DNA of 22,961 nt from Anaerolineales bacterium (lineage in GTDB: Bacteria > Chloroflexota > Anaerolineae > Anaerolineales > JABWBV01), in contig JACKAX010000045.1 in the NCBI GenBank assembly GCA_020634875.1, forward strand, positions 1-22,961, given 5' to 3'. Positions 1,356 to 22,004 of this stretch are shown piece after piece. A model generated the notes under the pieces. The model searched no databases. It had not been told where the DNA came from and was given only the letters and a program-made list of their open reading frames with translations. The stretch's first letter is position 1. Each line of letters opens with the position of its first letter. Position numbers and translations under genes: made by a program.

Positions 1356-1387
1356 GATGACCTTATACCTGATTACTTGTTTATTTT

Positions 1388-1639
1388 TTACCTGTCTTCC
1401 TGCACCAGCACCTGCCGCTTCCCCCAATCATCCTTACACAAAGGATACAGATGCACGCTCCCCGGCTTCTTCCCCAAAATCTTCTTGATCTTCAACATCA
1501 TCTCCTCTTGATGTGTAGGTAACAACGGCCCCAGAAACGCACTATACTGCACCCGGTCTAACCCATAATCCAGGCACACATCCGCAATCTTCGTGCGCTT
1601 CCCGTCATCAGGAATATCATAAATCAACAGACATTGCAT
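1388..1639 (-). CDS. cas2: Cas2, adaptation-complex subunit
   Basis: An 83-aa protein that bridges two Cas1 dimers in the spacer integration complex. The N-terminus MQCLLIYDIPDDGKR shows the first beta strand ending in the conserved Asp (D8). QYSAFLGPL matches the VQxSVFE-type strand of the ferredoxin fold. Length is typical. It lies 56 nt after cas1 and 32 nt before cas4, so it is part of the adaptation end of the operon. The ribosome site before its ATG is weak (GTTGAAGTGTT), so expression may be lower than that of its neighbours. Confidence 0.95.
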   Translation of the reverse strand: MQCLLIYDIPDDGKRTKIADVCLDYGLDRVQYSAFLGPLLPTHQEEMMLKIKKILGKKPGSVHLYPLCKDDWGKRQVLVQEDR

Positions 1640-1695
1640 AACACTTCAACTAATCACGAGAAACCGATCACCGATAACCAATTATCAATCATCAA

Positions 1696-2745
1696 TTACC
1701 ACCCCATCGTAAACGCTGTATATTCCGTCCGCTCGTGGCGCAGATACGTAGCAACATGCCGGGCCTGCATTTGCATAATCACCCGCAGGGGATACTTCTT
1801 TCCTTCAAACGGGGCAGGCGCGTCCAACCGGGTATTGATCTTCTCGGCCAACGTGCGCCGGAAATCCTTGGTCAGCAAGCCATTTTCTTCCTGTTCAAAG
1901 GCAACATTCTTGTTCGCCATCCCGATCACCGTACGGTCTACAATGGGTTGGCGGAATTCTTCGATGAAATCCAGAGCCAAGCTGGGTTTGCCGGGGCGGT
2001 CCGCATGAAGAAACCCCGCGTACGGGTCCAACCCTGCCAGGGTCAAACAACGTTCGCACAGATGATAGAGGATCCCGTACCCATAATTGAGGGCGGAATT
2101 GACCGGGTCCCGCGCCCCCCGCCCGGTCCGGGCTGTAAACCCATAGGTCTCTGGGAGCGCTTGCTTGATCGCTCCCCAGTATTGCCGTCCCGCGCGCCCT
2201 TCCAGCCCCATCATCTCCTCGCGCAAATCTTCAATTGTCGCCTCCCCGGAAACCACTTCCGGGTAATGGCGCATCCGTTCGATGTCAATGATCGCATCCA
2301 CCACTTCCGCCGCCCGCAAACGCAGTTCCTCATACAGAGGTGGGTCCGTTTCCTTACGGTATTTGCCCATGTACTTGAGCAGATTGGCCTGGTTTTGCAA
2401 CTTGCCCGCACTGAACGCCATCGCCAGAAACAGCCCGCGGGTAGAAGTATAGGCAAGCAACTGCGCCCGCCGCGTGGCGACCGTCCCGGCCAGGCCCGCG
2501 CTGTACAGGCTGGCATACGCCGTCCCTGTTCCGCTGATGAAGTGAATGGGAATCCCGCGCTCCGTACACTCCCGTACCACCTCTGCCGACAGACTGACCC
2601 CTTGATTGGCAATCGTCAGCGACTCCAGATGCATCAACGGCGCCTGCGCCAGCATTTCCTTCCCTTTCATCACCTTCAACCGTTCTGAGTACTTGCTGAC
2701 AAACGAACCAAATTGATCGACGAGTAAATGTTGAATAATGGGCAT
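1696..2745 (-). CDS. cas1: Cas1, CRISPR integrase
   Basis: A 349-aa Cas1, the catalytic subunit that inserts new spacers at the leader end of the array. Metal-binding positions are visible: E182 in MGLEGRAGRQYW, H247 in FLHADRPGKPSL, and D259/E262 in LALDFIEEFR. The N-terminal beta domain (about 1-80) includes the HLESLTIANQGVSLS segment common in Cas1. The ATG at 2745 is preceded by AGGAGTTAGT; an upstream in-frame extension to 3009 overlaps cas6 and looks non-coding. It lies 68 nt after cas6 on the same strand. All expected catalytic residues are present, so the protein is probably active. Confidence 0.97.
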   Translation of the reverse strand: MPIIQHLLVDQFGSFVSKYSERLKVMKGKEMLAQAPLMHLESLTIANQGVSLSAEVVRECTERGIPIHFISGTGTAYASLYSAGLAGTVATRRAQLLAYTSTRGLFLAMAFSAGKLQNQANLLKYMGKYRKETDPPLYEELRLRAAEVVDAIIDIERMRHYPEVVSGEATIEDLREEMMGLEGRAGRQYWGAIKQALPETYGFTARTGRGARDPVNSALNYGYGILYHLCERCLTLAGLDPYAGFLHADRPGKPSLALDFIEEFRQPIVDRTVIGMANKNVAFEQEENGLLTKDFRRTLAEKINTRLDAPAPFEGKKYPLRVIMQMQARHVATYLRHERTEYTAFTMGW

Positions 2746-2813
2746 ACTAACTCCTGTTATAAACTTGGGAAGTCTCCATACACCTCCTGAAGACTTTCCA
2801 AGTTTGCGACAAT

Positions 2814-3833
2814 CTAACCAACCTCTACGACAAACACCCCATTCCCCTTTGGCGCGCCCCTCCCCACCTGCGTCAATTGCCCCCACACCAGCCAGGGAAA
2901 CAACGTATCCCAATCTTCCAAAGCTGCCGAATATACAACTGGCCCAACCAACCCGCTCAACCAGGTCTTTTGCCCACTGCGGGCAGACCCACTGGCTACC
3001 TCCACCCACCGCGTCTTACTCTCTACCAGCCGCACCCGGTTCGCCGCGGCCCAAAGGCTATCCAACTCCGCGGCCGGGCGAGCATAACCTCCCCCAAACT
3101 GAACCGCAAGATCATCCACCTGTTTCAGCAACCGGGCAAAAAACACCCCAAAATCGGGACTCTTCACCAGCTTTTTATCTTCAATCAACCGTAACGGCGT
3201 CAAAAACGTCACCTTCACCCGTGCCCGGTGACCCTCCAACTGTTCTGACAGCCGTCTCGCCATCGCCAGCACTTCCTCATGTCCCACCGGATTTGCAGGC
3301 GGATAAAACAAGTTGTCTCCCTCAGCCAGCATCTGCCAATCATCCCCAACCAACTTCTCCGCCCACACCTGCCGCAAAGAAAACCGTCCACGCGGCCAGC
3401 CATACCCCACCCCACACCGCCCCGCTTCGGGCACCGCCAGCGCAAAATATGGCAAAAACTCCCGCGCCTCCCCAAACAACGTCAACCAGAACGTAAACGG
3501 TATCCCTGCTTCGAGCACTTCCGGCGTATTCAACGGCGGAATGAGGGTATATCCCCGCCGCTCTTGACCGGGCCGTTCATTCGCCTGCACCAGCCAACAT
3601 ACCGGACACGTCGCCGTATGCACCGCCAGTTCCTCACCACTTATTTTCACCCCTCTCCCAGTGGGAGAGGGGCCGGGGGTGAGGGGGTATGCCGCACACG
3701 TTGCCCGCGTCATCACATTTAACAACGCCCCGCGTAAATTACTCCCGGCCTGCCACCCGCCCAATCGGAGCGGGGATTCAGCCTGACAGTGAAAACGAAG
3801 ACGAATTGCGGTCAAAGGAAAAGCATTGGTCAT
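2814..3833 (-). CDS. cas6: Cas6, pre-crRNA processing endoribonuclease
   Basis: A RAMP protein of about 339 aa that cuts within CRISPR repeats to release crRNAs with the 8-nt handle. The C-terminal QLTQVGRGAPKGNGVF is the glycine-rich loop of Cas6 proteins. GGGYARPAAELDSLW and SLWAAANRVRLVESK resemble the double-RAMP layout of the large Cas6 family (about 280-350 aa). The ATG at 3833 has a strong site (TGGAGG, 5 nt spacing). A longer frame to 4022 exists but runs through the inverted repeat at 3977-4019 and lacks a good start signal. An interspersed palindromic repeat is inserted in frame (see 3650-3688). It is expected to process the array at 1-346 and possibly the mini-unit at 10226-10317. 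Confidence 0.88.
   Translation of the reverse strand: MTNAFPLTAIRLRFHCQAESPLRLGGWQAGSNLRGALLNVMTRATCAAYPLTPGPSPTGRGVKISGEELAVHTATCPVCWLVQANERPGQERRGYTLIPPLNTPEVLEAGIPFTFWLTLFGEAREFLPYFALAVPEAGRCGVGYGWPRGRFSLRQVWAEKLVGDDWQMLAEGDNLFYPPANPVGHEEVLAMARRLSEQLEGHRARVKVTFLTPLRLIEDKKLVKSPDFGVFFARLLKQVDDLAVQFGGGYARPAAELDSLWAAANRVRLVESKTRWVEVASGSARSGQKTWLSGLVGPVVYSAALEDWDTLFPWLVWGQLTQVGRGAPKGNGVFVVEVG
3650..3688. repeat. Interspersed palindromic repeat in frame within cas6
   Basis: A perfect 11-bp inverted repeat (CCCCTCTCCCA, one base, then its complement; 3650-3672) is followed by GGGGGTGAGGGG. On the minus strand it encodes PLTPGPSPTGRG. I know this amino-acid signature from a widely dispersed palindromic repeat found in Chloroflexota, cyanobacteria and others. 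It adds roughly 18 residues to Cas6 without breaking the frame. Confidence 0.75.
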
Positions 3834-3976
3834 CAAAGCCTCCACAATATTACAAAACTGAATGGGGAACGGGATTTTTCCCGCGCTCCGCCATGCCAAC
3901 CAACAAGCATCGGTTAAAAAGATCTTTTCAGGGAAGACATGGACAATTTCTTCCCAACAAATGACTCGCTTCCTTA

Positions 3977-4019
3977 CAGGAATTGATCCGTTTCTTATCA
4001 GGAATTGGATCAATTCCTG
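3977..4019. repeat. Inverted repeat between cas3 and cas6
   Basis: CAGGAATTGATCC at 3977-3989 is the exact complement of 4007-4019 (13 bp, 17-nt loop). The loop contains another CAGGAATT (3999-4006), which can instead pair with 4012-4019 (8 bp, 5-nt loop). The two foldings exclude each other. The element lies in the 263-nt gap between the effector genes and cas6 and could act on the operon mRNA. A plus-strand T-run at 4026-4032 follows it, but no plus-strand gene is known here. Confidence 0.6.
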
Positions 4020-4096
4020 CAAGGAAATTTTTTTCTACCTCACGAAGTGTTAGGGCACATCGGGGAGGTATTCGTAGAGGGTGAAGGAACGGACCA

Positions 4097-6502
4097 TCAA
4101 TCCAGTTCTTCCGACACAATATTCTCAAAGGTTAAACCAAGTTCACGACTGTATGGCGTGCGAACAACTGGCGGGATATGCTCATCGTGAGGAATAAGTA
4201 ATCCCTTTCCTTTCAGTGCATGGTAACGGCTCCAACTAATTGAAACCAGTAACTCTCGTGCCCGAATGGATTCCTTTTCTAATAACTGAATATATTCGTC
4301 GTAAAACATTTCAGGCAGAACATCAATCCCATCAAAGGCTTCATAAAACTTTTCCTTCAAATTCTCATCGGAATTGAACGGGCGCAAAGTATCCACAACA
4401 CTATCTTGAAACTCCTTCCCCATTTTCTCAAATTCCGCTTTCCAGGCTTCCGCAACCTCGCCAGCGTAAATCTCATCCAACCAGGCCCCAACTCGACTTT
4501 CGTCCACAGGTTTGCCGTGTTCGCGCCGCAAAACGTTAAGCGTGCCCGCAATCAGCCTTTCATCGTAGATTTTTTGTCCATCGTTGGGTTCTGTAAACAC
4601 ATGCACCGGGGCCAAATCGGTCATCTTCCGGCGGCGATTGATGCGCCCAAAGCGTTGCACCAGGGCTTCCAGCGGGGCCGGTTCGGTGTAAATGGTGTCC
4701 AGATCAATGTCGAGACTCACTTCAACCACTTGCGTCGCGACCAAAACAATCGGACGCCGGATATCACTTTTGGACCCCGTCGCATCTCGGACAAGTTTTT
4801 CTTTATCCAGGCGATCCCGAAGATTGAAACGCCCATGTAAGAGTTCAACTTCTGCGCCAGTTTCGGTCAAAGGCTTTAGCAGGTTGTAGGCTTGTTGGGC
4901 GCGGTCTACCAAATTGCACACGACCAGGACAGATTTTCCGGCGCGCGCTTCCACTTCAATCCGGGCAAAGTTTTCCGGTGCAAACATCTCCCCTTCAAGC
5001 ACCTCCAGCCGGTGACGTTGAAAGGCTTGAAACAACCCAGGTTCGGCCCTGATCTCCGTGGTTTCTCCAAGCGTTTCTTTCAACCAGTGCTTGATCAAAG
5101 TAGGGAATGTTGCCGACATGATGAAAAAACGCGCATGGTAATGCTTGCGAAGATATTCGATAGTTTTGAGAATCAACGCCAGCCGTTTCGTTTCATACGC
5201 ATGAATTTCATCGAAGATGAACAACCCATTGTGATAATCCGTCAATTGCGCCTCATACCCTTTCAGCCGGTACATCCCTTTGAGCATCTGGTAAGGGCTG
5301 AACACGCGCACGGGCGGGTAGTTCAACTTATTCATATCCCGTATCTGCCGGGCTGTTTTTGCTGCAGCTTTGGGATCGTCTTCCCGCTCCATCAATTGCC
5401 GGTACAAAGCCAACAAACTGCGTCCGTGCTGCAGCCCCACTAGGCTAAGATCATCTTTGCTCAAATGGGGAGGATCGAAGGTTTCCTGTAACCGCAATTG
5501 CATCGCATTCATGCTGGCCTGATAAGGCAGGGTATAGAAAAGGCGCGGGGTATTTCCGTCGAGTACCTGACCCGCCGCCCACAAGAGCGCGGCTTCTGTT
5601 TTCCCACTTCCGGTCGGGGCGGTTAGCAAGACCGACCCACAGGTAGTTTCCACATCGATTTGATGTTTGAACAACTTCTCGCGCGCAATCCCGCGTTTCT
5701 CCACCACATCTTCCGCCCGAAAAACCACGGAGGGGAGCGGCATTAAATGGGCGGAAGCACTATGATCGGCATTGATTAACGTGCCGCGCAGGGCCAACAA
5801 AGGCACAAGTACCGTCCCTTTTGTTTCCCGGTTGAGTTGCCGGACAAACTTCCCAAACGCCTTCACCCATTTACGAATCCGCTTGACCGCCCCGGGCACA
5901 AAGTCCGCTTCCGGGGTGGCCAAAAACTGGACAGGCGCAACCCCCAATCCATCCAGCCCCAACGCTTGCGCCCACGCCCAGCCACATACCACCAGCCAAC
6001 GGTGCAAACTCTGAATGTGCCCAGGGGTAAACCCCTCAAATTGGGCGAGGAGCGGGTCAGTTTCCCCGTCTTCCAGACTTGGATACCCCTGGTAAAGGAG
6101 ATATTCGGCGTCTTTATGATGGGAGATAATCGCTGCGGACGCCCATAACCGTTCTTGTTCATCCAGGCCCTCGGTAATCCAGTCCAAAAAGGCCAATGAA
6201 AATACCTCGTGCCGATGCTTCCCCCAACGTTCCTTAAGGGTTTTGTCTTTCTGCAAAACCCCCTGGAACCCCGGCATCGCCTTCCCAAAGTCGTGCAAGA
6301 ACGCGCCCCAGTACAGGCAATGCCAAAGCCGGGGTTGGTTGAGTTGTTCCGGCAGGTGAGCACGCAGTTTGATAAAGTCAGCCAGGCGGGAGAGCACCAA
6401 CCAGGTGTGGCGGGCGAGGGTTTCGGCCTCCGCCCCCTCGCCCTTTTCCGCACTTTTGGCCAGTATATCGTCTATCCAGTCTGGCCAGATTTCAGGATTC
6501 AT
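4097..6502 (-). CDS. cas3: Cas3, HD nuclease-helicase
   Basis: A fused HD nuclease and superfamily 2 helicase of 801 aa that unwinds and degrades DNA marked by Cascade. HD domain (about 1-135): H32, the H70-D71 pair in LHDFGK, H98 in HRHE, and H128-H129 in ISHHKD. Helicase: Walker A APTGSGKT at about 295-302, DEIH box at about 431-434, SAT at 463-465, then VLVATQVVEVSLDID and VQRFGRINRR (motifs V and VI). All motifs are intact. The ATG at 6502 overlaps the end of cas5 by 11 nt, indicating translational coupling; a TTG at 6517 is an alternative start. Confidence 0.97.
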   Translation of the reverse strand: MNPEIWPDWIDDILAKSAEKGEGAEAETLARHTWLVLSRLADFIKLRAHLPEQLNQPRLWHCLYWGAFLHDFGKAMPGFQGVLQKDKTLKERWGKHRHEVFSLAFLDWITEGLDEQERLWASAAIISHHKDAEYLLYQGYPSLEDGETDPLLAQFEGFTPGHIQSLHRWLVVCGWAWAQALGLDGLGVAPVQFLATPEADFVPGAVKRIRKWVKAFGKFVRQLNRETKGTVLVPLLALRGTLINADHSASAHLMPLPSVVFRAEDVVEKRGIAREKLFKHQIDVETTCGSVLLTAPTGSGKTEAALLWAAGQVLDGNTPRLFYTLPYQASMNAMQLRLQETFDPPHLSKDDLSLVGLQHGRSLLALYRQLMEREDDPKAAAKTARQIRDMNKLNYPPVRVFSPYQMLKGMYRLKGYEAQLTDYHNGLFIFDEIHAYETKRLALILKTIEYLRKHYHARFFIMSATFPTLIKHWLKETLGETTEIRAEPGLFQAFQRHRLEVLEGEMFAPENFARIEVEARAGKSVLVVCNLVDRAQQAYNLLKPLTETGAEVELLHGRFNLRDRLDKEKLVRDATGSKSDIRRPIVLVATQVVEVSLDIDLDTIYTEPAPLEALVQRFGRINRRRKMTDLAPVHVFTEPNDGQKIYDERLIAGTLNVLRREHGKPVDESRVGAWLDEIYAGEVAEAWKAEFEKMGKEFQDSVVDTLRPFNSDENLKEKFYEAFDGIDVLPEMFYDEYIQLLEKESIRARELLVSISWSRYHALKGKGLLIPHDEHIPPVVRTPYSRELGLTFENIVSEELD

Positions 6503-7226
6503 CGTCTGCCCCCACAAAACTGAGCAAACTCAGCCCCCGCTGCACGCCCTTGTATTCTGGCGCGGTCGGGTCAACCCAGTAGGTTTGTTCCGGTTTGGTG
6601 CCAAACCACATAAAATCTTGCTCGCTGTCCAGACGTTCCTGCACGACAAAGTAACGGGCAAACGCAGGTTGGCGTTTGCGTTCGTAATCCAGATAGCGCG
6701 GGAGCAAGATGGCAAAGCCCCGATTTGTGTAACGGGTGGCGCTGTAAGGCAGCAAGGTGTGTTCAAAATACGCGTGGGGCGCCTGGGTCAATTCCACCGT
6801 TTCCACGCGCGTATACGTAAACAAATCTTGGGACCGCCCCAACACCACCGCATAACGCGGACTCCGAAAAGCTGATTCCCATTCCGGGCGGTTGAGATAC
6901 AGCGTCAACCGGGGTTGGAAGAGCAATTCCCGATCAAATGGGTTCACATTGCCTTCCAGCACTTTTGGCTCACCACTGTCTTTCAACTTGCCCGAAGAGG
7001 GAGAAAGCACGATGATATGCTCGATGTCCTTCACTTTGGCCGCGTACGTGAAATGATAGGCAAATTTCACCCCGTCCGGGTCAAACCACTCCCCCAGCGC
7101 ACTGGCAATATGCCCGTAGATCGTCGCGGGGGGCGGCATCGGAAACGTCGGGTGAATCTGCTGCATGAAGTGAGGGTAGCGGAAGGAAGTAGTCATCCCT
7201 TCCGCCACCACTTTGAGGACACGCAT
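6492..7226 (-). CDS. cas5: Cas5, Cascade subunit (Cas5t type)
   Basis: A 244-aa Cascade subunit that caps the crRNA 5' handle. The N-terminus has the family pattern: MRVLKVVAEGMTTSFRYPHF followed by FPMPPPATIYGHIASALGEW, which matches the Cas5t (Tneap) form of type I-B. A GGAGG site lies 6 nt before the ATG at 7226. The stop of cas7 is only 9 nt upstream and overlaps this ribosome site, and the end of the gene overlaps cas3, so cas7-cas5-cas3 are tightly coupled. This subunit should recognise the ACTGAAAC handle, and plausibly the ACTGAAAT handle of the guide at 10257-10264. Confidence 0.93.
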   Translation of the reverse strand: MRVLKVVAEGMTTSFRYPHFMQQIHPTFPMPPPATIYGHIASALGEWFDPDGVKFAYHFTYAAKVKDIEHIIVLSPSSGKLKDSGEPKVLEGNVNPFDRELLFQPRLTLYLNRPEWESAFRSPRYAVVLGRSQDLFTYTRVETVELTQAPHAYFEHTLLPYSATRYTNRGFAILLPRYLDYERKRQPAFARYFVVQERLDSEQDFMWFGTKPEQTYWVDPTAPEYKGVQRGLSLLSFVGADDES

Positions 7227-7235
7227 GGGAGCCTC

Positions 7236-8294
7236 CTATGCCAGCCAGTCTGGATTTTCGTTCACTTTGGCAATCAAAGCCTGATACGCCTCACGCGGGT
7301 GGCTGATCAGCACGTTATCTTTGCCTGTTGCCCAGGCTTCAAAACTGGCGCGTTCTTCATCCAGATAGCCTTGTGCCCACCCAACATAAATTGGGGAAAC
7401 GATTTCATCGGCAAACACGCGCATGACTTCCTCCAACGCTTCGGTTTTGACCGTCGGTTGGCCTTTGCCATTCGCCCCCACTGCATGTCCGAAGATGTGA
7501 TTGCCGCCTTTTGTCACGGCCAGCATTACGAGCGGAGGGGCAACATCGGTGTAGTGCAGGGTTTGTTTCGCCCCGCCTTCCAGCCGGGCCAGTCCATCCA
7601 GCAAGGCACTCACCCGTTGCAGGCGTTCAGCTTGCGGCAGGCGGTAGGATTTTTCGGCTTCCAGATGTTCCAGGCCGCGTTCGGTGGCGATTTTGAGACG
7701 GTTCTCGTCCAGATTGCGAAAGCCCGTTTTATTCCGATAAGAAAAGGTTCCGGCGGCTTGCAAGTCGAGGGAAAAGAGACCGCGCAGGGTGGCCCGGTAA
7801 AACTGGTGTTCGTGGGGAACCGGATCGCCCTCATGCCGGGACATGGTGCCAAAATCTTCGGTGATATTGACCGGGGCCAGCGAAACCAGCGTGCTGACGC
7901 GGAAGGGCGATACCCGCGTAATCGTATCCGTGGTGGGGGTTTCCTCGGCACGGGCCTCGTCTGCCTGCCGTTTTTCGACGGCGGAGGCCTTTTTCGACGG
8001 GGCACGCATATAGCCTAAAAGATCATCATCCCACCAGGTGATCGGATTGGCATCGGTATAAGCCACCTTTTCCTCTCGATAAATGGGGGCGGAACGCCAA
8101 GCGTCATTGGCTTGTAACGTATCCCGCAACCAATAGCGAAAAGCCTGGGCGGAAACATAAGGATACACCCCTTCTTTGGTGCGAATCAATTTGACGCCTA
8201 CCGTGTTATCGGTGCGTGCGCCAGGAATACTACCCAGATTGTTGAGGGCGGATGCCGGAGCATCAATCAACAAAATACCAGTGATAAAAGACAT
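7236..8294 (-). CDS. cas7: Cas7 (Cst2/DevR family), Cascade backbone
   Basis: A 352-aa protein forming the helical backbone that coats the crRNA guide. ITGILLIDAPASALNNLGSI followed by RTDNTVGVKLIRT and YPYVSAQAFRYWLRDTL is the characteristic N-terminal pattern of Cst2/DevR proteins of type I-B. The C-terminal part includes PPLVMLAVTKGGNHIFGHA. The ATG at 8294 has GGAGG 7 nt upstream. It lies 21 nt after cas8 and 9 nt before cas5. In this family one copy occupies about six guide bases and flips out every sixth base, which matters for the mismatch at guide position 6 of the candidate self-targeting RNA. Confidence 0.95.
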   Translation of the reverse strand: MSFITGILLIDAPASALNNLGSIPGARTDNTVGVKLIRTKEGVYPYVSAQAFRYWLRDTLQANDAWRSAPIYREEKVAYTDANPITWWDDDLLGYMRAPSKKASAVEKRQADEARAEETPTTDTITRVSPFRVSTLVSLAPVNITEDFGTMSRHEGDPVPHEHQFYRATLRGLFSLDLQAAGTFSYRNKTGFRNLDENRLKIATERGLEHLEAEKSYRLPQAERLQRVSALLDGLARLEGGAKQTLHYTDVAPPLVMLAVTKGGNHIFGHAVGANGKGQPTVKTEALEEVMRVFADEIVSPIYVGWAQGYLDEERASFEAWATGKDNVLISHPREAYQALIAKVNENPDWLA

Positions 8295-8315: not shown

Positions 8316-9803
8316 TTATTCGTTATCCGTTTCTGTTTCACGTTGGGTTTCGGCCAAGAGTTCCTGGTTCGCGCCCAACCATCCGTTGGCGTGCAGTTGC
8401 TCGACCATGCGGATTAAAACCAAATCACGGGCCAGTTTCCAGTCTACCCGTGCCAGTTCCTCGCCTTCTTCAAAGACACTGATGTAGCCATCCAACGTCA
8501 GGAAAGGTGGATGACCACGCCGAGCGTACTCTTTATTGGCCTTGATCAGTTCATTCCGAACCAGATCATACCGGTTGAGTACGTAAAAATTGCGGAAGAA
8601 ACGCCGGTCATTCTGGCTTTTCACGTAATCAGCCAGCGCGTCTCCCATGTTGCGGATGTTTTCGATTCTTTCATTTTCCATGTACAAAACTCCTTTTAAG
8701 AATGGTTTGGTCAATTTCCAGGAAACAAGTTCCCTTTCCTGTCGTAGAGAATAACTGCCACGCGGGTCCACTTGCGCTTTGGCAAACCGGAACGGATCGC
8801 GCAAAAAGTACGTGCGGATGAACTGCGGCCCCCCCCGGTACGGGTCATCGGCGACCTTGAATAGGTCTTCATACAAATAGTTGCGGCTGGGCGGCGGGGC
8901 TTCTTTTTCACCTTTTTTCGCTTTAGTGATTTCCCAGGCCCTATATACCAGTTGGTTCCAGGCACTTTCATAATCCGGATGCCGCATTTGTTTCAAATAC
9001 AGGACGATTTGGTTGGGGAGATGGTAGAGATTCAACCCCACCCCTTGCCCACTATTGGTCAGGTGATAAGCAGTGATTGAAAACGGCTTTTCATCATCTT
9101 CGTTAACCAATTGCATCTCGCGAGCTTCAAGCAAAGTGTGAATGAGCAGGGTGCGATATTTCAAATCTGGTTCGGGCATTTTGCTGCTGCCCGCTTCGCG
9201 GGCAAGCCCAACCAAACGGCGGTTTTCTTCCAGAAATTTTCCCGCAAAATGCCGAATGATTTCAGGGTTATCCGAATGGACAAAAAGCAACCGTCCTTCA
9301 CATTTTGCACTGCCCAGCGGCAAAGCCTGGATTGCCAGTAACGCCTCGCCCGAAACGGGTAGCCCGGCCTCGCCGTAAGGGTGAAAGTTGATCACGTCTT
9401 CTGCCGTTAGCAAGGGAATGTGCTGGCGAAACGCCCGCCCTGGCATGAGTTTACCCTCCACATCCGCATCAAAAGGCAGATTGGCTGCCGCCAAGCCCAT
9501 GAATGGGTCTGGTTCTTCTAGGCGCGGAGCCGTGTCTTCATACGCTCGTAAAACCCGTGCTTTGTAAATCTCCTGCTTTGCTGGTTGCGTGAAGAAAGCA
9601 GGTTGCGTAAACCCCGAATTCGGGAACGCGACCGTCAAATAACTCCGTAAAGGATTAACGGTGTAATTCTCCGCCATGTAATTGGCAATGGATTCCAGGT
9701 CGGCTTCGTTCAACTGCTCCGGCCTGTCTTTGCGGGCAAAGGCGGTAATCGTCGCCAGACCCACGTCTACGAGGGGGTGTCCGGTATATTTCAATTCTTG
9801 CAT
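8316..9803 (-). CDS. cas8: Cas8 (Cas8b1/Cst1-like), Cascade large subunit
   Basis: A 495-aa large subunit expected to read the PAM and start R-loop formation. The N-terminus, YTGHPLVDVGLATITAFARK then LNEADLESIANYMAENYTVN and FPNSGF, resembles Cst1 proteins. Position directly before cst2-like cas7 supports this. The family is named for two CXXC zinc motifs, but this protein has a single cysteine (in GSAKCEGRLL), so the zinc site is lost. A GGAG site precedes the ATG at 9803. The identification rests on the N-terminal pattern, length and synteny, so it is less certain than for its neighbours. Confidence 0.82.
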   Translation of the reverse strand: MQELKYTGHPLVDVGLATITAFARKDRPEQLNEADLESIANYMAENYTVNPLRSYLTVAFPNSGFTQPAFFTQPAKQEIYKARVLRAYEDTAPRLEEPDPFMGLAAANLPFDADVEGKLMPGRAFRQHIPLLTAEDVINFHPYGEAGLPVSGEALLAIQALPLGSAKCEGRLLFVHSDNPEIIRHFAGKFLEENRRLVGLAREAGSSKMPEPDLKYRTLLIHTLLEAREMQLVNEDDEKPFSITAYHLTNSGQGVGLNLYHLPNQIVLYLKQMRHPDYESAWNQLVYRAWEITKAKKGEKEAPPPSRNYLYEDLFKVADDPYRGGPQFIRTYFLRDPFRFAKAQVDPRGSYSLRQERELVSWKLTKPFLKGVLYMENERIENIRNMGDALADYVKSQNDRRFFRNFYVLNRYDLVRNELIKANKEYARRGHPPFLTLDGYISVFEEGEELARVDWKLARDLVLIRMVEQLHANGWLGANQELLAETQRETETDNE

Positions 9804-9833: not shown

Positions 9834-10091
9834 TCATAAATAACTGATCTGAGTGGGATTGATTGAGTCCCAGCGGATCTTTAGGCCATGCCTTTCACAG
9901 AATGTTTCAAATAGGTTACGTTGACTAGCAGGAATAACCCAACGATCATCTTGCCAGAACCTATCGGGGAATTCCAACTTAAATTCATCAACTAAACGAA
10001 CGAAACTTTCGTAATTCCCATAGCGTAAAAATCGCAAGTGAATTTCCTGATTTTGCTTTGTGCAATCTGCAAGACCAAATTTGTTTTTCAT
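9834..10091 (-). CDS. Unknown 85-aa protein, first gene of the cas operon
   Basis: I do not recognise the family. The protein starts MKNKFGLADC and contains FVRLVDEFKLEFPDRFWQDD followed by RWVIPASQRNLFETFCERHG, which looks like one compact alpha/beta fold rich in aromatic residues. There is no membrane segment or signal peptide. The ATG at 10091 has GGAG 7 nt upstream; a TTG four codons earlier is less likely. It begins about 30 nt after the predicted transcription start and ends 30 nt before cas8, so it is made with Cascade. Lower G+C than cas8 hints at separate origin. It could be an accessory Cascade or regulatory subunit. Confidence 0.75.
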   Translation of the reverse strand: MKNKFGLADCTKQNQEIHLRFLRYGNYESFVRLVDEFKLEFPDRFWQDDRWVIPASQRNLFETFCERHGLKIRWDSINPTQISYL

Positions 10092-10121
10092 GACTATCTC
10101 CAAAACAGGTTGTAATTTTGT

Positions 10122-10157
10122 TTTGACAAGAATAGCATAAAATCACATGAGATTCAA
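10122..10157 (-). promoter_or_regulatory. Promoter of the cas operon
   Basis: On the minus strand TTGAAT (10152-10157) is followed after exactly 17 bp by TATTCT (10129-10134). A TG one base before the -10 hexamer makes it an extended -10. The start would be near 10122, giving a leader of about 30 nt before the ATG at 10091. No other comparable promoter precedes the first cas gene. Confidence 0.75.
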
Positions 10158-10181
10158 CTATACAACAAACACTAACATAGG
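10158..10181 (-). promoter_or_regulatory. Predicted self-protospacer and PAM in front of the cas promoter
   Basis: The minus strand from 10178 to 10158 matches the guide at 10265-10285 in 19 of 21 positions, differing only at guide positions 6 and 11. It is flanked 5' by CCT (10181-10179), a possible PAM. The site abuts the -35 box at 10152-10157, so an R-loop of ordinary length running from 10178 would cover the -35 hexamer. Cascade bound here would be expected to block the cas promoter. The alternative reading is that the two segments form an inverted-repeat operator for a protein such as the WYL regulator. Confidence 0.75.
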
Positions 10182-10198
10182 AGAAACGCTCGGACTTA

Positions 10199-10225
10199 TT
10201 GACAAATGAATTTCTGTGGTAAAAT
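10199..10225 (+). promoter_or_regulatory. Promoter of the crRNA-like guide RNA
   Basis: A perfect TTGACA at 10199-10204 is followed after 15 bp by TAAAAT at 10220-10225, with TGG just before it (extended -10). The start would be near 10232, just at the beginning of the degenerate repeat. It points away from the cas operon. Confidence 0.65.
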
Positions 10226-10231
10226 TTTTCT

Positions 10232-10337
10232 GCACATAATCGATTCGTTTGAGAATACTGAAATATGTTTGTGTGTGTTGTATAGGCCCTCCATCGATCC
10301 GAAGTGGATACTCAAAAGGAGGGCTTATTCCTTTTTA
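10232..10337 (+). ncRNA. CreR-like mini-CRISPR RNA predicted to repress the cas operon
   Basis: The unit reads repeat, guide, repeat, terminator on the plus strand. The first degenerate repeat (about 10226-10264) shares ATCGATTC and GAGAATACTGAAA with the array repeat, with one inserted base and a final T for C. The guide starts at 10265. A second, more decayed repeat (10291-10317) matches the last 27 nt of the array repeat in 19 positions. Only the 3' halves of the repeats are kept, which is the part carrying the Cas6 cut site and the handle. The guide matches the cas promoter (10158-10178). Known CreA and CreR RNAs have the same layout and direct Cascade to promoters without cleavage because pairing is partial. 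No toxin gene lies beside it, so autorepression fits better than a CreTA toxin-antitoxin pair. Confidence 0.8.
10286..10337 (+). terminator. Terminator enclosing the second degenerate repeat
   Basis: GCCCTCC (10286-10292) pairs with GGAGGGC (10318-10324). The 25-nt loop holds most of the second repeat and an inner ATCC/GGAT stem. TTATTCCTTTTTATT follows on the plus strand. The opposite strand has no T-run after the hairpin, so it terminates the guide RNA rather than the WYL gene transcript. Confidence 0.6.
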
Positions 10338-11318
10338 TTGTCCGGCACGTAAATGGGCATTTTTTACTTCTGCCCGCAACCACTCCGGTTGTTCCACGGC
10401 CACGCGCTCGCCGTAATACAACAACCAACTCACCATCTCAGGGGTGATGCCAACAAAAAACCGCATCCGTACCCGCCCATCCGGGAGAAATTCGGCGGGT
10501 TGCTGGCTTTTGTGCCAGTATTCTTCTGCGACCCACTGGCCTGCCAGTTCATCAAAAAGCAAACTGATTTCTTCTGCCTCCTTCGCTGACCCGCGCATCA
10601 AGCCCCACCCATCGCCCAGGTACGCATCCAAATCGAACGTCTCTGGAATCGTGTAGTGGGTATCCAGCATTTCCGCCTCTAAGACACGATCTACTTTGAA
10701 CTGCAAAATCTCCTGGCGATTATGGTCAAAAGCGATTAACTGCCAGGAACGTCCATAGGGCATCAAATGGTAAGGTTCAATTGTCCGGGCTTTGGCTTCC
10801 CCTTTGCGTGAGGCGGTTGCATAAAGAATAGTGATTTGTCGTTTCTCTGCAAATGCCCGATGCAATAATGACAACATCGCTTGCCGGTGTTCTCGAACGG
10901 CTCGCCGGGGTAATTGTTCGGTCGCCTCCCTCAGCATCGGGCGGAGTTCATCCGGGAAGATAGATTCCAACCGCGCAATCGCCGCCGCCAATTCAGATGA
11001 ATTAATTCCAGGAAGCGCCTGTGCAGTACGGGCCGCAGTGAGCAATGCAATCGCCTCCGAAAAAGAATAAGTGGAAGTAGGGAGATGAGGAAGTCTCTCG
11101 AAACTATACCCTATCCCATCATGCGTCAGTTGTAATCCTAAGCGGTAACGAATTATTTCCAAATCCTTCTGGATCATTCGTTCCCCAATTTCATGATGTT
11201 CTGCCAGACTTCGCCGACTCCAATGCCCAGGCGCGGTAGCAATTTGCTGGATGATCTCCAAAACACGGGCAGTACGTCGTATCTGGTTATCTCTATCTTC
11301 ATTCCAATTGTTATTCAC
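10335..11318 (-). CDS. WYL-domain transcriptional regulator
   Basis: A 327-aa regulator with an N-terminal winged helix (about 1-75, RRSLAEHHEIGERMIQKDLE). A central WYL domain follows (about 150-230, TIEPYHLMPYGRSWQLIAFD and FKVDRVLEAE), then a C-terminal WCX region (about 245-320). WYL domains bind nucleic acid or other ligands, and such proteins often lie beside and repress CRISPR-Cas operons. The start is a GTG at 11318 with GGAGG 6 nt upstream. Its stop is only about 10 nt beyond the guide-RNA terminator stem, so its transcript would run antisense to that RNA if not stopped. The likely target is the cas promoter region, but no operator is proven. Confidence 0.9.
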   Translation of the reverse strand: MNNNWNEDRDNQIRRTARVLEIIQQIATAPGHWSRRSLAEHHEIGERMIQKDLEIIRYRLGLQLTHDGIGYSFERLPHLPTSTYSFSEAIALLTAARTAQALPGINSSELAAAIARLESIFPDELRPMLREATEQLPRRAVREHRQAMLSLLHRAFAEKRQITILYATASRKGEAKARTIEPYHLMPYGRSWQLIAFDHNRQEILQFKVDRVLEAEMLDTHYTIPETFDLDAYLGDGWGLMRGSAKEAEEISLLFDELAGQWVAEEYWHKSQQPAEFLPDGRVRMRFFVGITPEMVSWLLYYGERVAVEQPEWLRAEVKNAHLRAGQ

Positions 11319-14005: not shown

Positions 14006-14068
14006 AAGCCCTGCCCGGAATTCTTACAATCCCCGTGCCGCCTCCGTGCGGTGCGAGGAGGTTTTCCC

Positions 14069-15025
14069 TTGACCACCATTCTCGAAGAAGCCCAGGCACT
14101 CCTGGGACCCCCACTCAAAATCGAAAGCCACCGGAGTTGGGCGATTTGGTGGTGTCCTTTCCACCCAGACGATAACCGCGCCGGGCAGGGCGGGCACCCC
14201 AACTTTGGCATCCACACGGAAAAAGGCTACTGGAAGTGTTTGCGCTGCGGGGCCAAAGGCCCTTCATTGACCGTCCTTCGCAAACGCCTGGGAAAAAACC
14301 TACCCCCTGTTCACACAGTCACCCCAACCCGTCGGGAAACGCGGCCACAAATCGCCCAGCTTGATGAAGCCCTCGCCGAAAACCGCGCGGCGTTGATGCG
14401 CTCACCCGTGTGGGAATACCTGCACCGGCGCGGCATCCGCCCCTACACCTCCTTGCTCTATGGGTTGGGATATGGCCTTACCCAACCGCCTGTATCCCAA
14501 ACTGTGTCCGTAGCTGCCCGAAATTCCGGTTTGATTGCCCGAAGCGGAAAATGGCTTTGGGCAGGGGGGCTTGTTTATGCCGACCCACCCACCGATCCCC
14601 GCGTGGTTCAGGTCCGGCATCTTCCCGCAAAACCTAAAAAGAAATACCAAACCTGGGGCCGCCTGACGATTCCCCTCGGAGCCTGGCGCATCCAGGCCTC
14701 TACCCTGGTTCTGGTCGTGGTCGAAGGCATGTTTGATGCCTTTGCCCTGTCCCAGGCCCTACACGATCGCGAACACGCCCATGCCGTCGCGATCTTTACC
14801 GGAGGTGCGACGCCTTCTTATCCCATGCTGAAATGGTTCGCCACAAACGCCCAGAAATATGGCTTTGTGCTAATCCCCGACCCGGACGAGGCCGGACACC
14901 AATGGGCACAAACGCTTCAAGGAGCTGTGCAGGAGGCATGTGGGATCACCCTCACTCTCGCGCCTCCCAAGGGCCTTGACCCAGACGAAGCCATCCTCCA
15001 GGGCTGGTGGCCTGCCGGACTATGA
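14069..15025 (+). CDS. CHC2 zinc-finger / TOPRIM primase-like protein
   Basis: A DnaG-type protein of 318 aa, shorter than chromosomal DnaG (about 600 aa) because the helicase-binding C-terminal region is missing. The zinc motif is C29-P-F-H32 with C57-L-R-C60. The TOPRIM core follows: E219 in LVVVEGMFDAFAL, then D271-x-D273 in LIPDPDEAGHQW. It should make RNA primers for replication of the element. I chose the TTG at 14069 because GGAGG lies 7 nt upstream; a GTG at 14051 would put that site inside the gene. No replicative helicase is visible in the window, so it must use a host or distant partner. Confidence 0.88.
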   Translation: MTTILEEAQALLGPPLKIESHRSWAIWWCPFHPDDNRAGQGGHPNFGIHTEKGYWKCLRCGAKGPSLTVLRKRLGKNLPPVHTVTPTRRETRPQIAQLDEALAENRAALMRSPVWEYLHRRGIRPYTSLLYGLGYGLTQPPVSQTVSVAARNSGLIARSGKWLWAGGLVYADPPTDPRVVQVRHLPAKPKKKYQTWGRLTIPLGAWRIQASTLVLVVVEGMFDAFALSQALHDREHAHAVAIFTGGATPSYPMLKWFATNAQKYGFVLIPDPDEAGHQWAQTLQGAVQEACGITLTLAPPKGLDPDEAILQGWWPAGL

Positions 15026-15050
15026 ACACGTGGACACCCCGAAGGTTGTT

Positions 15051-15356
15051 ATGCCTGTCTATCTACTCCATTTTTCTGAAAGATATAAACACGCCGGCCA
15101 TTATTTGGGCTTTGCTGAAGACCTTGAAGCCCGTTTGGCCAAACATCGAGCAGGGAATGGCGCACGGTTGGTCGAAGTGATCACTGAAGCGGGGCTGGAT
15201 TTTCAACTAGTCCGCACCTGGAAAGGCGACCGTGCGCTGGAACGCCAACTGAAACGGCAGAAAAACGGGCCGCGCCTGTGCCCGATCTGCAACGCCCGAA
15301 CAAGCCAAAACTTGCCCGGCAAAGGAGAAAAACCACCCTCAGCTTATGACCCATAA
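15051..15356 (+). CDS. GIY-YIG domain protein
   Basis: A 101-aa single-domain GIY-YIG endonuclease-like protein. The signature appears as V3-Y4-L5 and HYLGF (17-21). R28 lies in DLEARLAKHRAGNGARLV and E64 in GDRALERQLKRQKNG, in the expected order for the catalytic residues. PRLCPICNA adds a CxxC near the end. Small proteins like this are related to the UPF0213/YhbQ type; their cellular role is mostly unknown. AAGG lies 6 nt before the ATG at 15051. It follows the primase by 25 nt and probably shares its transcript. Confidence 0.85.
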   Translation: MPVYLLHFSERYKHAGHYLGFAEDLEARLAKHRAGNGARLVEVITEAGLDFQLVRTWKGDRALERQLKRQKNGPRLCPICNARTSQNLPGKGEKPPSAYDP

Positions 15357-15421
15357 ATTAAAACCACCCACACACATCCCCTCAAACCTACATAAAACCT
15401 ACCGTATAAGGAGAAAACCTC

Positions 15422-15829
15422 ATGTATCAAAATTTGATTCTCATCGGCAACTTGGGCCGCGACCCGGAGATGCGCTACACCCCCACCGGGCAAGCCGTCA
15501 CCAATCTTTCCCTGGCCACGAACCGGCAATACACCGACGCTTCCGGCCAACGGATCAAGGAAACCACCTGGTTCCGCGTGTCTGTTTGGGGAAAAACGGC
15601 AGAAAACTGCAACCAATACCTTCAAAAGGGCAGCCGGATTTTGGTTGAAAGCCGACTCAATCCCGACCCGGCGACCGGTAGTCCACGGGTGTGGACCCGA
15701 CAGGACGGTACAGCCGGAGCTTCGTTTGAAGTGACCGCCCACCGGGTGCAGTTTCTCTCCAGCCGGAATGAAGATAACGGCTTTGCCCAATATGAAGAGC
15801 CAGTAGACGACGAATCCATCCCCTTCTAG
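15422..15829 (+). CDS. ssb: Single-stranded DNA-binding protein
   Basis: A 135-aa SSB. The OB fold starts MYQNLILIGNLGRDPEMRYT and includes NLSLATNRQYTD and TTWFRVSVWGKTAENCNQYL. The acidic tail ends DDESIPF, the tip that recruits replication and repair partners. The ATG has AAGGAG 9 nt upstream. The linker is short compared with chromosomal SSBs of about 170 aa, as is common for plasmid or phage copies. It lies between the primase group and the membrane protein gene and fits a replication module. Confidence 0.96.
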   Translation: MYQNLILIGNLGRDPEMRYTPTGQAVTNLSLATNRQYTDASGQRIKETTWFRVSVWGKTAENCNQYLQKGSRILVESRLNPDPATGSPRVWTRQDGTAGASFEVTAHRVQFLSSRNEDNGFAQYEEPVDDESIPF

Positions 15830-15888
15830 CCCCCATTAAAAAATGAAACAAATGTCCACAGATCGTGGTAAGATCAAGGAGACCCTAA

Positions 15889-16275
15889 ATGGTCACGCCC
15901 CTTACAAACCAAAAATGGCCCACCGGCCTACTCCTGGGATGTTTCCTGGTTGCTTTACTTCTGGTCGTTGCTCTCGCCATGGCGAATGATCAAGAAGCGC
16001 GCGTCAGCCCGGAAGAATACCAGGAAGTGATGGAGGCCGCGGACAAAGCACCGCTGCCCCCGGAACAAAACTGTCCTTTCAAACTTACGCGTGCTCAATG
16101 GGATGAACTGCAAGCACAATTCGAGCGCACGCCCGCTTTGGGCGACACCTGGGCTCCAAGCGGTGAACATTACATCCTGGTAGCCCTGCTCAACCGCTGG
16201 AACCTGTTCCCCGCCACCGCCGAAGATGCACTCGAACTCGCTGAATTTCTGTTAACCTATTGCCTGGAGAATTGA
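15889..16275 (+). CDS. Hypothetical membrane-anchored protein
   Basis: A 128-aa protein with one hydrophobic segment near the N-terminus (LLLGCFLVALLLVVALAMA, about 14-32). A soluble domain with EEYQEVMEAADKAPLPPEQN, LTRAQWDELQAQFER and EDALELAEFLLTYCLEN follows. The segment could be an anchor or an uncleaved signal; a cysteine in LLGCF resembles a lipobox but is not in a standard place. AAGGAG lies 7 nt before the ATG. It ends one base before the next start, so the two genes are coupled. Function unknown. Confidence 0.7.
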   Translation: MVTPLTNQKWPTGLLLGCFLVALLLVVALAMANDQEARVSPEEYQEVMEAADKAPLPPEQNCPFKLTRAQWDELQAQFERTPALGDTWAPSGEHYILVALLNRWNLFPATAEDALELAEFLLTYCLEN

Positions 16276-16276
16276 G

Positions 16277-16672
16277 ATGGAAACCTCTCTCCCTATCCAA
16301 ATGCCTAACCCCACCCCGGAACAACTGGCGGAGATTCGCCGTCTGCTCCCGCAAAAAACAGATAACACCCAGACCCTCACCGAGCCGTACCACCCCTTAC
16401 ATACTTATCTCCTGGATTCCCTGGCGTTGAAGTTAAATGGCACCCATGATCAGGCGGTATACACCGCGGGATGGAGTCTCCTATGGTGTGCGCGTCACCG
16501 GCTTCTGCCTGCCATTGAGACGACATACACCCATGCCCGTGAAAACAGCAAGAATGGGGATGGCGGCGGTCACGCAGCTTTGCGCCAGAACCTGAATCAC
16601 CTGGGTTACCGGGTAGCTTCTTCCCACGAGGCTGAACAAGTGGCCGAAGCAATCCTCCAGGGTCAACTCTAG
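16277..16672 (+). CDS. Hypothetical 131-aa protein
   Basis: Starts METSLPIQMPNPTPEQLAEI and has helical segments LHTYLLDSLALKLNGT, AVYTAGWSLLWCARHRLLPA and HEAEQVAEAILQGQL. No family recognised and no membrane segment. It starts one base after the preceding stop, with GGAGA 8 nt upstream inside that gene, so translation is probably coupled. Two strong terminators follow it. Confidence 0.65.
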   Translation: METSLPIQMPNPTPEQLAEIRRLLPQKTDNTQTLTEPYHPLHTYLLDSLALKLNGTHDQAVYTAGWSLLWCARHRLLPAIETTYTHARENSKNGDGGGHAALRQNLNHLGYRVASSHEAEQVAEAILQGQL

Positions 16673-16695
16673 CCCCATTCAAACCTCTCTCATAG

Positions 16696-16725
16696 ACGGC
16701 GGTTTTTACCGCCGTTTTCTTTTTC
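16696..16725 (+). terminator. Intrinsic terminator
   Basis: ACGGCGG (16696-16702), loop TTTTTA, CCGCCGT (16709-16715), then TTTCTTTTT. It lies 24 nt after the stop of the 131-aa gene. Confidence 0.85.
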
Positions 16726-16762
16726 AAAAACGCCCTGTCGAATATTTCGACAGGGCGTTTTT
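16726..16762. terminator. Second, bidirectional-looking terminator
   Basis: A perfect 17-bp stem: 16726-16742 (AAAAACGCCCTGTCGAA) with 16746-16762, three-base loop. T5 follows on the plus strand and, by symmetry, on the minus strand. Directly in tandem with the previous terminator; the next ribosome site begins 13 nt later. Confidence 0.85.
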
Positions 16763-16785
16763 GATTCCCGAAAAAGGAGCATGAT

Positions 16786-16860
16786 ATGCAAACTCAAGCT
16801 TTCCAAACATCTGCCTCCCGCGGTAGCACAGTTTCCAATAACCCCAGAGGTGTGCCATGA
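16786..16860 (+). CDS. 24-aa leader peptide coupled to the next gene
   Basis: ATG at 16786 with AAAAAGGAG 6 nt upstream opens a 24-codon frame, MQTQAFQTSASRGSTVSNNP then RGVP. Its TGA overlaps the next ATG (ATGA at 16857-16860). Good ribosome site plus overlap suggest real translation. Rich in Ser, Thr and Gln; no hydrophobic segment. It may work only by coupling. An out-of-frame ATG at 16781 is close by. Confidence 0.45.
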   Translation: MQTQAFQTSASRGSTVSNNPRGVP

Positions 16861-17249
16861 AGCTCAAGCCCGAACACATTGCCAGCAAGATTCTACAAGA
16901 AGCTGAAGAGACCGACTTCCTGAAAACAATGGCCGAGGATCGTGCGACCTGCGGCAATTTTCTACCCCCGGACATCCCTGGAGCATACCTGTTCTGGTTC
17001 GAAGACGAAGCGGAAATCCAGGAAGCCCAGGCAGAAACCTACCCCGACGAAGCCGAGAAACGCCTGCGATATGCTGATATCCTCCGCGAAGTCGCCGGAC
17101 GTTTGCGTGACCTGGGATACGAACGGTCTATCCCAGAAAAAGAGAAGCCAGATGAGACCCTTATCCCCGTCCACCAAATTGGCCCGGCTCCTTTCATCTT
17201 TTCCTCCCTCAAGCAGGGTGCGTTCGACTTCGCACCAACCGGTGGCTGA
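16857..17249 (+). CDS. Hypothetical acidic 130-aa protein
   Basis: Starts MKLKPEHIASKILQEAEETD and has a strongly acidic middle (FWFEDEAEIQEAQAETYPDE) followed by KRLRYADILREVAGRLRDLG, then a proline-rich tail. No family recognised. Its start overlaps the stop of the 24-aa frame and its own site (AGAGG) is weaker, so it is probably expressed by coupling. It ends 70 nt before the next terminator-like hairpin. Confidence 0.65.
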   Translation: MKLKPEHIASKILQEAEETDFLKTMAEDRATCGNFLPPDIPGAYLFWFEDEAEIQEAQAETYPDEAEKRLRYADILREVAGRLRDLGYERSIPEKEKPDETLIPVHQIGPAPFIFSSLKQGAFDFAPTGG

Positions 17250-17319
17250 GGTGACTACACCAAATCTAAAACATCTCCATCCTGGAGATCAGGAGGAATA
17301 CCCCATAACCCTTTATTGA

Positions 17320-17353
17320 CCGGGACACAGTTTTGAACTGTGTCCCGGTTTTT
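17320..17353 (+). terminator. Strong terminator hairpin directly before the zinc-ribbon gene
   Basis: CCGGGACACAGTT (17320-17332), three-base loop, exact complement at 17336-17348, then T5. Only about 10 nt separate the T-run from GAGGAG of the next gene, so no promoter fits between them. Confidence 0.85.
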
Positions 17354-17374
17354 GTTTCTATGAGGAGAAATCCC

Positions 17375-18037
17375 ATGTTCTGTAAAAATGACCCTTGCGA
17401 AAACGAAGCCGTTCCTGAAAGCGGCAAATTGCACCTTTGCCAAACTTGTTACCAGGCGTGGCAATGCGGGTTCCAACGGTGGACTCACGTTGCCACCCAA
17501 GTCAAAACCTATCACATTCGTGACAGCCTGCTAATCCGTCTGCCCAAGCCTTTCGACGGAAACTTATTCCCAGACACACAAGGCCTGGACACCTGGCCTC
17601 CTCCAAATATGCTCCCTTTCCAGAGCTTGTTTGAAGGCCTCCCACCCAACCGTATCAGTTACGGTTTTCTCGAATTAGGGGAGTGGTCGGGAGAGGCCTA
17701 CGAGAAAGAATTTCAGCTTCCTTTCCTGCTCGGTCCCGATGGCAAAGTCTGGGCTGAAATTGGCGAAGTGGACGACCTACCCCCTCTTGCTGAGCGTGAC
17801 CGGGAAGCCCTGGCGGCCAAAATGATTGATGAGTTTCTGGAAATCTGTGACGACGGCGAGTTTACTCTGGAGGAAGGCGAGCCAACCCGTGCCGAACTTT
17901 GCTTCTGGCCGGTGCCGCGGGTCATGCACTGGCTTCAACGCCCCACGACCTTACGCCGGGCCGCCCCCGCCCAACGACAACTCATCCAAGGCTTGCTCAG
18001 GGAACTAAAAGCTCTAGGGTTCCAACCGAAACCCTGA
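17375..18037 (+). CDS. Hypothetical protein with N-terminal zinc ribbon
   Basis: A 220-aa protein. The N-terminus MFCKNDPCENEAVPESGKLH followed by LCQTCYQAW has a C-x4-C and a C-x2-C pair that can bind one zinc ion. The remainder has an acidic middle (EIGEVDDLPPLAERD, CDDGEFTLEEGEPTR) and an arginine-rich end (RPTTLRRAAPAQRQL). No family recognised for the body. The ATG at 17375 has GAGGAG 7 nt upstream; an in-frame ATG at 17333 lies inside the terminator hairpin and is unlikely. Flanked by terminator-like hairpins on both sides. Confidence 0.7.
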   Translation: MFCKNDPCENEAVPESGKLHLCQTCYQAWQCGFQRWTHVATQVKTYHIRDSLLIRLPKPFDGNLFPDTQGLDTWPPPNMLPFQSLFEGLPPNRISYGFLELGEWSGEAYEKEFQLPFLLGPDGKVWAEIGEVDDLPPLAERDREALAAKMIDEFLEICDDGEFTLEEGEPTRAELCFWPVPRVMHWLQRPTTLRRAAPAQRQLIQGLLRELKALGFQPKP

Positions 18038-18067
18038 ACCAGGTCGTCTTTCCTTTTCATATTCTAG

Positions 18068-18099
18068 TGCCCGCCCGGCTATCCGGGCGGGCATTTTTT
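18068..18099 (+). terminator. Strong terminator abutting a ribosome binding site
   Basis: TGCCCGCCCGG (18068-18078), loop CTAT, exact complement (18083-18093), then T6 to 18099. The GGAG of the next gene begins at 18100, directly against the T-run. Confidence 0.85.
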
Positions 18100-18111
18100 G
18101 GAGATTGTACG

Positions 18112-20445: not shown

Positions 20446-20457
20446 ACGGTTCTTAAA

Positions 20458-20495
20458 GCAGGGTGCTCCATGGGAGCGCCCTGCGCCTTCTTTTT
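20458..20495 (+). terminator. Terminator hairpin before dnaN
   Basis: GCAGGGTGCTCC (20458-20469), loop ATG, GGAGCGCCCTGC (20473-20484): 12 bp with one T-G pair. CCTTCTTTTT follows. The dnaN ribosome site begins about 12 nt later. Confidence 0.8.
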
Positions 20496-20518
20496 CAATT
20501 TTCCATAGGAGAAAACTC

Positions 20519-21673: not shown

Positions 21674-21697
21674 ACCTCAACCAAAAGGAGAAACCAT

Positions 21698-21949: not shown

Positions 21950-21968
21950 GCGAAATGATCCCCCTATA

Positions 21969-22004
21969 AAAATACCCAGACAATTACGCTGTCTGGGTAT
22001 TTTT
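21969..22004 (+). terminator. Strong terminator before radC
   Basis: AAAATACCCAGACA (21969-21982), 7-nt loop, exact complement (21990-22003), T-run to 22004. The next ribosome site (GGAG) starts 7 nt later. Confidence 0.85.

Follow-up and report, generated by a model that had tools for sequence, protein, structure and literature searches.

The window, as we call the whole 22,961-nt stretch of Anaerolineales DNA analysed here, opens with a CRISPR array and a set of cas genes encoded on the minus strand. The array (19-346, written in the sense of its handle) contains 5 repeats of 37 nt separated by spacers of 35-36 nt. It is followed by a block at 732-3009 with cas4 (732-1427), cas2 (1388-1639) and cas1 (1696-3009), and by cas6 (2814-4022; PF10040), cas3 (4097-6517; TIGR01587 and TIGR01596), cas5 (Cas5t/Cas5b; 6492-7226; TIGR01895), cas7 (Cst2/DevR; 7236-8294; TIGR02585) and cas8b1 (Cst1; 8316-9803; TIGR01908). 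The system was assigned to type I-B (Cas8b1/Cst1), as Cas8b1, Cas7/Cst2, Cas5t, Cas3 and Cas6 are all present, with a Cas8b1 family score of 25.8 against a cut-off of 19.4. The first gene of the operon encodes an 85-aa protein (9834-10091, minus strand) and has GGAGA upstream. Beyond it lies a gene for a WYL-domain regulator of the CRISPR-associated type (10335-11318, minus strand; PF13280, PDLC01457), and a mini-CRISPR unit is placed between this gene and the cas operon.

Several other features of the window were recorded. About 94 residues precede the Cas1 match in the cas1 reading frame, which may reflect a wrong start or an extension. Strong hairpins at 3970-4026 (25 nt at 88%, 7-nt loop) and 16724-16764 (19 bp perfect, 3-nt loop) are perhaps terminators. 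The plus strand from 14051 to 22722 encodes a primase-like protein, a single-strand binding protein, a DUF2958 protein, DNA polymerase III beta and RadC, suggesting that the CRISPR locus may sit on a plasmid or integrative element.

The mini-CRISPR unit and its match to the putative cas promoter

The unit lies on the plus strand and consists of a degenerate repeat, a short guide and a second degenerate repeat within a terminator-like hairpin. We aligned the first repeat (psiR1, 10239-10264) to the array repeat of the window and to the arrays of three related loci (L001, L007 and L047). It keeps the hairpin arms ATTC/GAAT and an 8-nt handle (10257-10264, ACTGAAAT) that differs from the array handle ACTGAAAC in the final base alone, where C at base 37 of the array repeat is replaced by T at 10264. 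The guide (10265-10285) is followed by the terminator-like hairpin (10286-10336), formed by GCCCTCC (10286-10292) and GGAGGGC (10318-10324) and ending in the T-rich stretch TTATTCCTTTTT. In its loop lies the second repeat (psiR2, 10293-10317), which retains a hairpin, ATCC/GGAT, with a compensated pair, and has a handle decayed to ACTCAAAA. The sequence-only reading had described the first repeat and the guide, both borne out here, and had overlooked psiR2 inside the stem. The same nesting of a second repeat in a terminator-like stem was seen at another locus, L045 (GCCGTGT ... ACACGGCTTTTTT).

The predicted RNA fold of 10232-10337 had an energy of -29.8 kcal/mol (z -2.42), equalled by 5 of 200 shuffles, and its minimum-energy form contained both the terminator-like stem and the psiR2 hairpin. 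The 4-bp psiR1 hairpin was missing from this whole-transcript fold, in which the leader pairs with the guide. The features expected for Cas6 processing are therefore present in the arms and handle of psiR1, yet not in the fold. A search of Rfam with gathering thresholds gave no match.

A putative cas promoter was read on the minus strand at 10129-10157 as TTGAAT (10157-10152), a 17-nt spacer and TATTCT (10134-10129), with TGC preceding the -10 box and 8 of 12 bases agreeing with consensus. The putative promoter of the unit (10199-10231, plus strand) comprises TTGACA (10199-10204), a 15-nt spacer and TG-G-TAAAAT (10220-10225), with a predicted start near 10232; it is probably weak, as its spacer lies outside the 16-18 range. 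A promoter scan of 10060-10420 at a threshold of 9/12 called neither, and a terminator scan that is blind to loops longer than 8 nt found none at the unit. The earlier proposal that the unit has its own promoter and terminator, and that its target is the cas promoter, was thus upheld as to the TTGACA, the stem with its T-rich tract and the -35-like box adjoining the site, and weakened as to the nonstandard spacing, the 8/12 agreement and the silence of both scans.

By direct reading, the arms at 10158-10179 and 10264-10285 form a 22-nt inverted repeat that is 91% complementary. The guide, read from 10265, matches the minus strand from 10178 to 10158 at 19 of 21 positions, the exceptions being 6 and 11. 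This target (protospacer, 10158-10178, minus strand) abuts the -35-like box of the cas promoter, itself a prediction (8/12), and CCT occupies the PAM position (10179-10181, minus strand); the three equivalent bases on the guide's own side are AAT. Our rereading confirmed the sequence-only reading on each of these points. The best guide match in 10080-10239 had 2 mismatches, while 4000 first-order Markov stretches gave a minimum of 4, reached in 5 of them, and elsewhere in the window mismatches never fell below 7. With positions 6, 12 and 18 left free, no place outside the unit other than the promoter site matched 9 or more leading guide positions. The match between guide and site is far beyond chance.

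The rule for PAM and seed applied here comes from the type I-B1 Cascade of Thermotoga maritima, not from the present system. There the PAM is YYD, the seed comprises positions 1-5 and 7, and a mismatch at position 6 had no effect on binding (PMC13199841, part of the text). In the window CCT fits YYD, positions 1-5 and 7-10 match, and the mismatch at position 6 can be excused, as had been argued from the DNA on other grounds; position 6 is also mismatched at loci L041, L044 and L119. The second mismatch lies at position 11, not 12, and hence inside the 7-11 seed of CreA, which counts against a role in directing Cascade.

Guide-bearing units at other Cas8b1 loci

We surveyed the upstream regions of related Cas8b1 genes. 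A first genome scan with the single Cas8 sequence gave 14 pattern matches, none of them a relative. From 1390 homologous proteins 120 were taken, and 32 of these were aligned for a second genome scan, which yielded at least 80 stretches and at least 63 loci; in a further step 30 of 42 places became loci. The 125 fetched loci and the window made 126 sequences, 118 with a usable Cas8 start. Removal of duplicates and of sequences with less than 150 nt upstream left 75 distinct upstream regions, in which 416 repeat-like candidates were scanned. Searches with Cas8 gave 6 pattern matches in viral contigs, none a relative, and one distant match in plasmids (Herpetosiphon, 39%).

A guide matching its own upstream region next to a CC PAM was found in 12 of the 75 regions, the window included. 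The units were strong in the window, L002 (Promineifilum), L077, L007, L051, L036 (Ammonifex), L041 (Pelotomaculum) and L045, and weaker in L031 and L044 (five mismatches each), L123 (two) and L119 (a 12-nt match). In the other 63 regions the scan detected no unit with a matching site; L001, the closest relative with readable context (77% Cas8 identity), is one of these. For the unit present in L050, no target was detected. Matches in L004 and L095, which had no CC PAM, were set aside as chance or coding repeats.

The guides differ widely across lineages, the first 7 nt being common to the window and L002, and each nevertheless matches the region upstream of its own operon. The independent divergence of guide and promoter that had been named as evidence against the proposal was not what we found. 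When the orthologous units of L041, L044 and L119 are compared, guide and site have changed together at positions 1 and 10. Position 6 has a different base in every guide and fails to match the site in each unit, and the remaining positions among 1-11 are unchanged and matching. This comparison of orthologs revealed the covariation expected of a CreR guide and its promoter site. The sequences of 11 other loci show the same arrangement as the window, in which different guides would each be directed to the unit's own upstream region.

Judged by eye, 9 of the 12 regions have their sites at TTGACA-like promoters; in L031, L036 and L123 the site shows no clear promoter. The site precedes the -35 box in the window and L002, covers the promoter in L051 and follows the -10 box in L077, L045, L041, L044 and L119; sites occur on either strand. 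In L007 one guide has two sites (-1786 and -1708 from cas8), before the -35 and after the -10 box of the promoter-like TTGACA-N17-TAATCT. Each site has a CC PAM and mismatches the guide at 6 and 12, and the pair may form a double operator.

The matched promoter is separated from cas8 by the unit in L041, L044 and L119. A 189-aa gene (-815 to -245 from cas8) stands between the matched promoter and the unit in L044, with the same order in L119, so the RNA could derive from the operon that is predicted to be under its control. Loci where no unit was detected (for example L010, L011 and L072) often have a regulator-like gene, by eye of WYL type, directly upstream of cas8 and in the same direction. 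In the window, and by eye also in L002 and L045, the unit and a promoter stand between the regulator gene and cas8.

Mismatch phase, PAM and alternative explanations

We scored guide matches with positions 6, 12 and 18 left free, counting scores of 14 or more, and used the other phases and guides swapped between loci as controls. The 6/12/18 phase gave 12 matches, 10 of them with a CC PAM, compared with 6, 5, 3, 4 and 2 matches for the five other phases and 0-4 (mean about 0.9) in 40 rounds of swapping. Among swapped-guide matches scoring 12 or more, 2 of 65 had a CC PAM. A search blind to both PAM and mismatch phase returned 46 matches, 15 with CC. In these 15, which include two of doubtful context and possibly due to chance (L032 and L009), 23 of 31 mismatches fell at positions 6, 12 or 18, against 13% expected (35/263 positions; binomial P 1.9e-14, a test that assumes independent mismatches, an assumption that does not fully hold for the orthologous units or the two L007 sites). 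The 31 matches lacking CC had 11 of 73 mismatches at these positions, as expected by chance (76/506 positions). The PAM was CCC at 6 of the 13 sites of the 12 units; the last base misfits YYD, so the PAM preference may differ here.

The units also differ from arrays in guide length. Ungapped matching of psiR2 against shuffles was weak: for 5 of 13 units, no more than 14 of 500 shuffles attained the score. It was replaced by a motif test, for which both hairpin motifs were written after the sequences had been seen. A second-repeat hairpin motif followed the guide in 12 of the 13 units examined, L051 failing the test; the two motifs turned up in 60 and 134 of 40,000 random windows. The second-repeat core lies 23-37 nt from the guide start in 12 units (11 with a site, and L050). 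In the arrays of eight loci the distance from spacer start to the following repeat core is 49-54 nt, except for one longer gap in L001. The window's second-repeat core is 20 nt nearer to the guide start than in the array. In Haloarcula type I-B, with spacers of 21-24 nt, about 9-13% of the target mRNA remained in one strain and 10-29% in a second; 24-nt spacers supported neither interference nor priming (PMC10989794, part of the text). By analogy across subtypes, the 21-nt pairing in the window fits repression without cleavage.

We considered whether a transcription factor, for example the WYL protein encoded alongside, might instead use the two arms as a pair of operators, with the likeness to a repeat being accidental. 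A 22-nt inverted repeat does adjoin a regulator gene. In the CC matches, however, the PAM lies on the target side, orientation and position vary from locus to locus, mismatches recur every 6 nt and the guide arm comes after the repeat handle, although our search required the last of these; we consider this explanation very improbable. Complementarity near the operon would also fit an antisense RNA that acts, independently of Cascade, on the cas transcript. This is the least credible of the alternatives, since PAM and mismatch period have no role in antisense pairing and since the window and L002 have the site on the upstream side of the -35-like box, where that promoter does not transcribe it. 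The PAM and the 6-nt phase of mismatches are, as judged from the sequences, the imprint of Cascade, and neither that of an antisense RNA nor that of a protein operator. Stray repeats and self-matching spacers do occur, and the unit could be a leftover array fragment whose spacer matches by chance and has no regulatory role. We regard this too as very unlikely: the pattern recurs in 12 loci, guides are shortened, seed positions have changed together, and the second repeats have retained their hairpin but in most cases not the handle, L031 being an exception. The WYL operator, antisense RNA and chance were thus all weighed and rejected.

A different proposal is that the guide guards a toxin-like first gene, following the logic of CreTA and CrePA, so that loss of Cascade would free the 85-aa protein as an alarm or toxin. 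The matched putative promoter would drive an orphan protein ahead of cas8, with homologues in L002 and L077 only among the 75 upstream regions, and small unrelated ORFs picked by eye lie between unit and cas8 elsewhere: hydrophobic peptides of 30 aa in L036 (-134 to -41 from cas8) and 28 aa in L123 (-138 to -51), and ORFs of 64 aa (L051), 69 aa (L031) and 77 aa (L045). The ORFs of L036 and L051, however, were not picked by the automatic caller, and L041 has no leader gene. The 85-aa protein has no family match and no membrane helix by hydropathy, and a sequence search requiring shared 5-residue words found the protein itself alone. Its AlphaFold model (pLDDT 82.9, from three sequences) gave no confident fold match, with weak and mixed matches to YciH/aIF1 and XPB in the PDB and to a HepA-related phage protein in BFVD. 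With 30 nt between the end of this ORF and cas8, and no separate promoter seen, control would extend to the cas genes either way. We think it improbable that guarding a toxin is what the guide is for. Slightly better odds, although still low, attach to a combined arrangement in which the first gene behind the guarded promoter encodes a small protein particular to its lineage (of 85 aa here, and elsewhere a membrane peptide with a single helix), so that CreR and CrePA (described in review PMC12737573, part of the text) would be fused in one operon. If so, an anti-CRISPR that removes Cascade would free both new Cas proteins and an alarm or toxin.

Predicted autorepression of the type I-B cas operon

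The unit is very probably a mini-CRISPR that yields a CreR, leading Cascade to repress its own type I-B cas operon with no cutting. This reading is favoured because of the Cascade-type mismatch phase and CC PAM, the co-changed seed positions and the shortened guides, and psiR1 and psiR2 are, as in a CreR, degenerate repeats of the cognate CRISPR in a standalone unit. The weakness of both window promoters by consensus counts against it. A short transcript would start near 10232, and Cas6 would cut at both degenerate repeats to leave a short guide flanked by an 8-nt 5' handle (10257-10264) and a 3' hairpin. Once loaded with this RNA, Cascade would read CCT, pair over 10178-10158 and block the adjoining -35 box. 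Recruitment of Cas3 would be prevented by pairing that ends at 21 nt and by a second repeat core 20 nt nearer. Competition from array crRNAs for Cas proteins, or removal of Cascade by an anti-CRISPR, may lift repression.

Related elements are known from other systems. Standalone repeats and mini-arrays, a class of crRNA-like elements that match cas8 promoters and in this resemble the present units, are reportedly described in a computational study by Shmakov et al. in 2023 (NAR). Workman et al. are said to have reported in 2021 that Cas9 is autorepressed by a natural single guide, again a cas autorepression by a natural guide, although in a Class 2 system and with a tracrRNA-derived RNA.

CreA has two divergent degenerate repeats, each keeping the part it needs, and by sequencing the 8-nt 5' handle derives from the first and the 3' handle from the second; the seed of CreA comprises positions 1-5 and 7-11, and CreA pairs partially with a promoter (PMC8501985, part of the text). 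The unit resembles it in these respects, and differs in that CreA represses a toxin RNA whereas the site here is the cas promoter, with position 11 mismatched. Autorepression by CreR (Liu et al. 2023, Cell Host Microbe, as given in the parts available of the reviews) is stated for types I-B, I-E and V-A (PMC13131331) and also covered in PMC12737573 and PMC12948488. The sequence-only reading knew of no such RNA in this Cst-type system; within type I-B as such, the present case is not the first. The present case, recognised by sequence alone, differs in concerning Cas8b1/Cst1 systems of Chloroflexota and Firmicutes. Among the titles and abstract openings searched, a set that does not include the key CreR papers, we found no report of CreR in Cas8b1 systems or in Chloroflexota, and we accordingly make no claim to a first report.

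These results would extend Cascade-based autorepression to the Cas8b1 systems of Chloroflexota and several Firmicutes. They also provide an evolutionary test of the mechanism without experiment, as mismatches across differing guides sit where Cascade does not read, and the combination of mismatch phase and PAM offers a cheap filter for finding such regulators. The shortened guides suggest a way in which a cell may bind its own promoter without cutting it.
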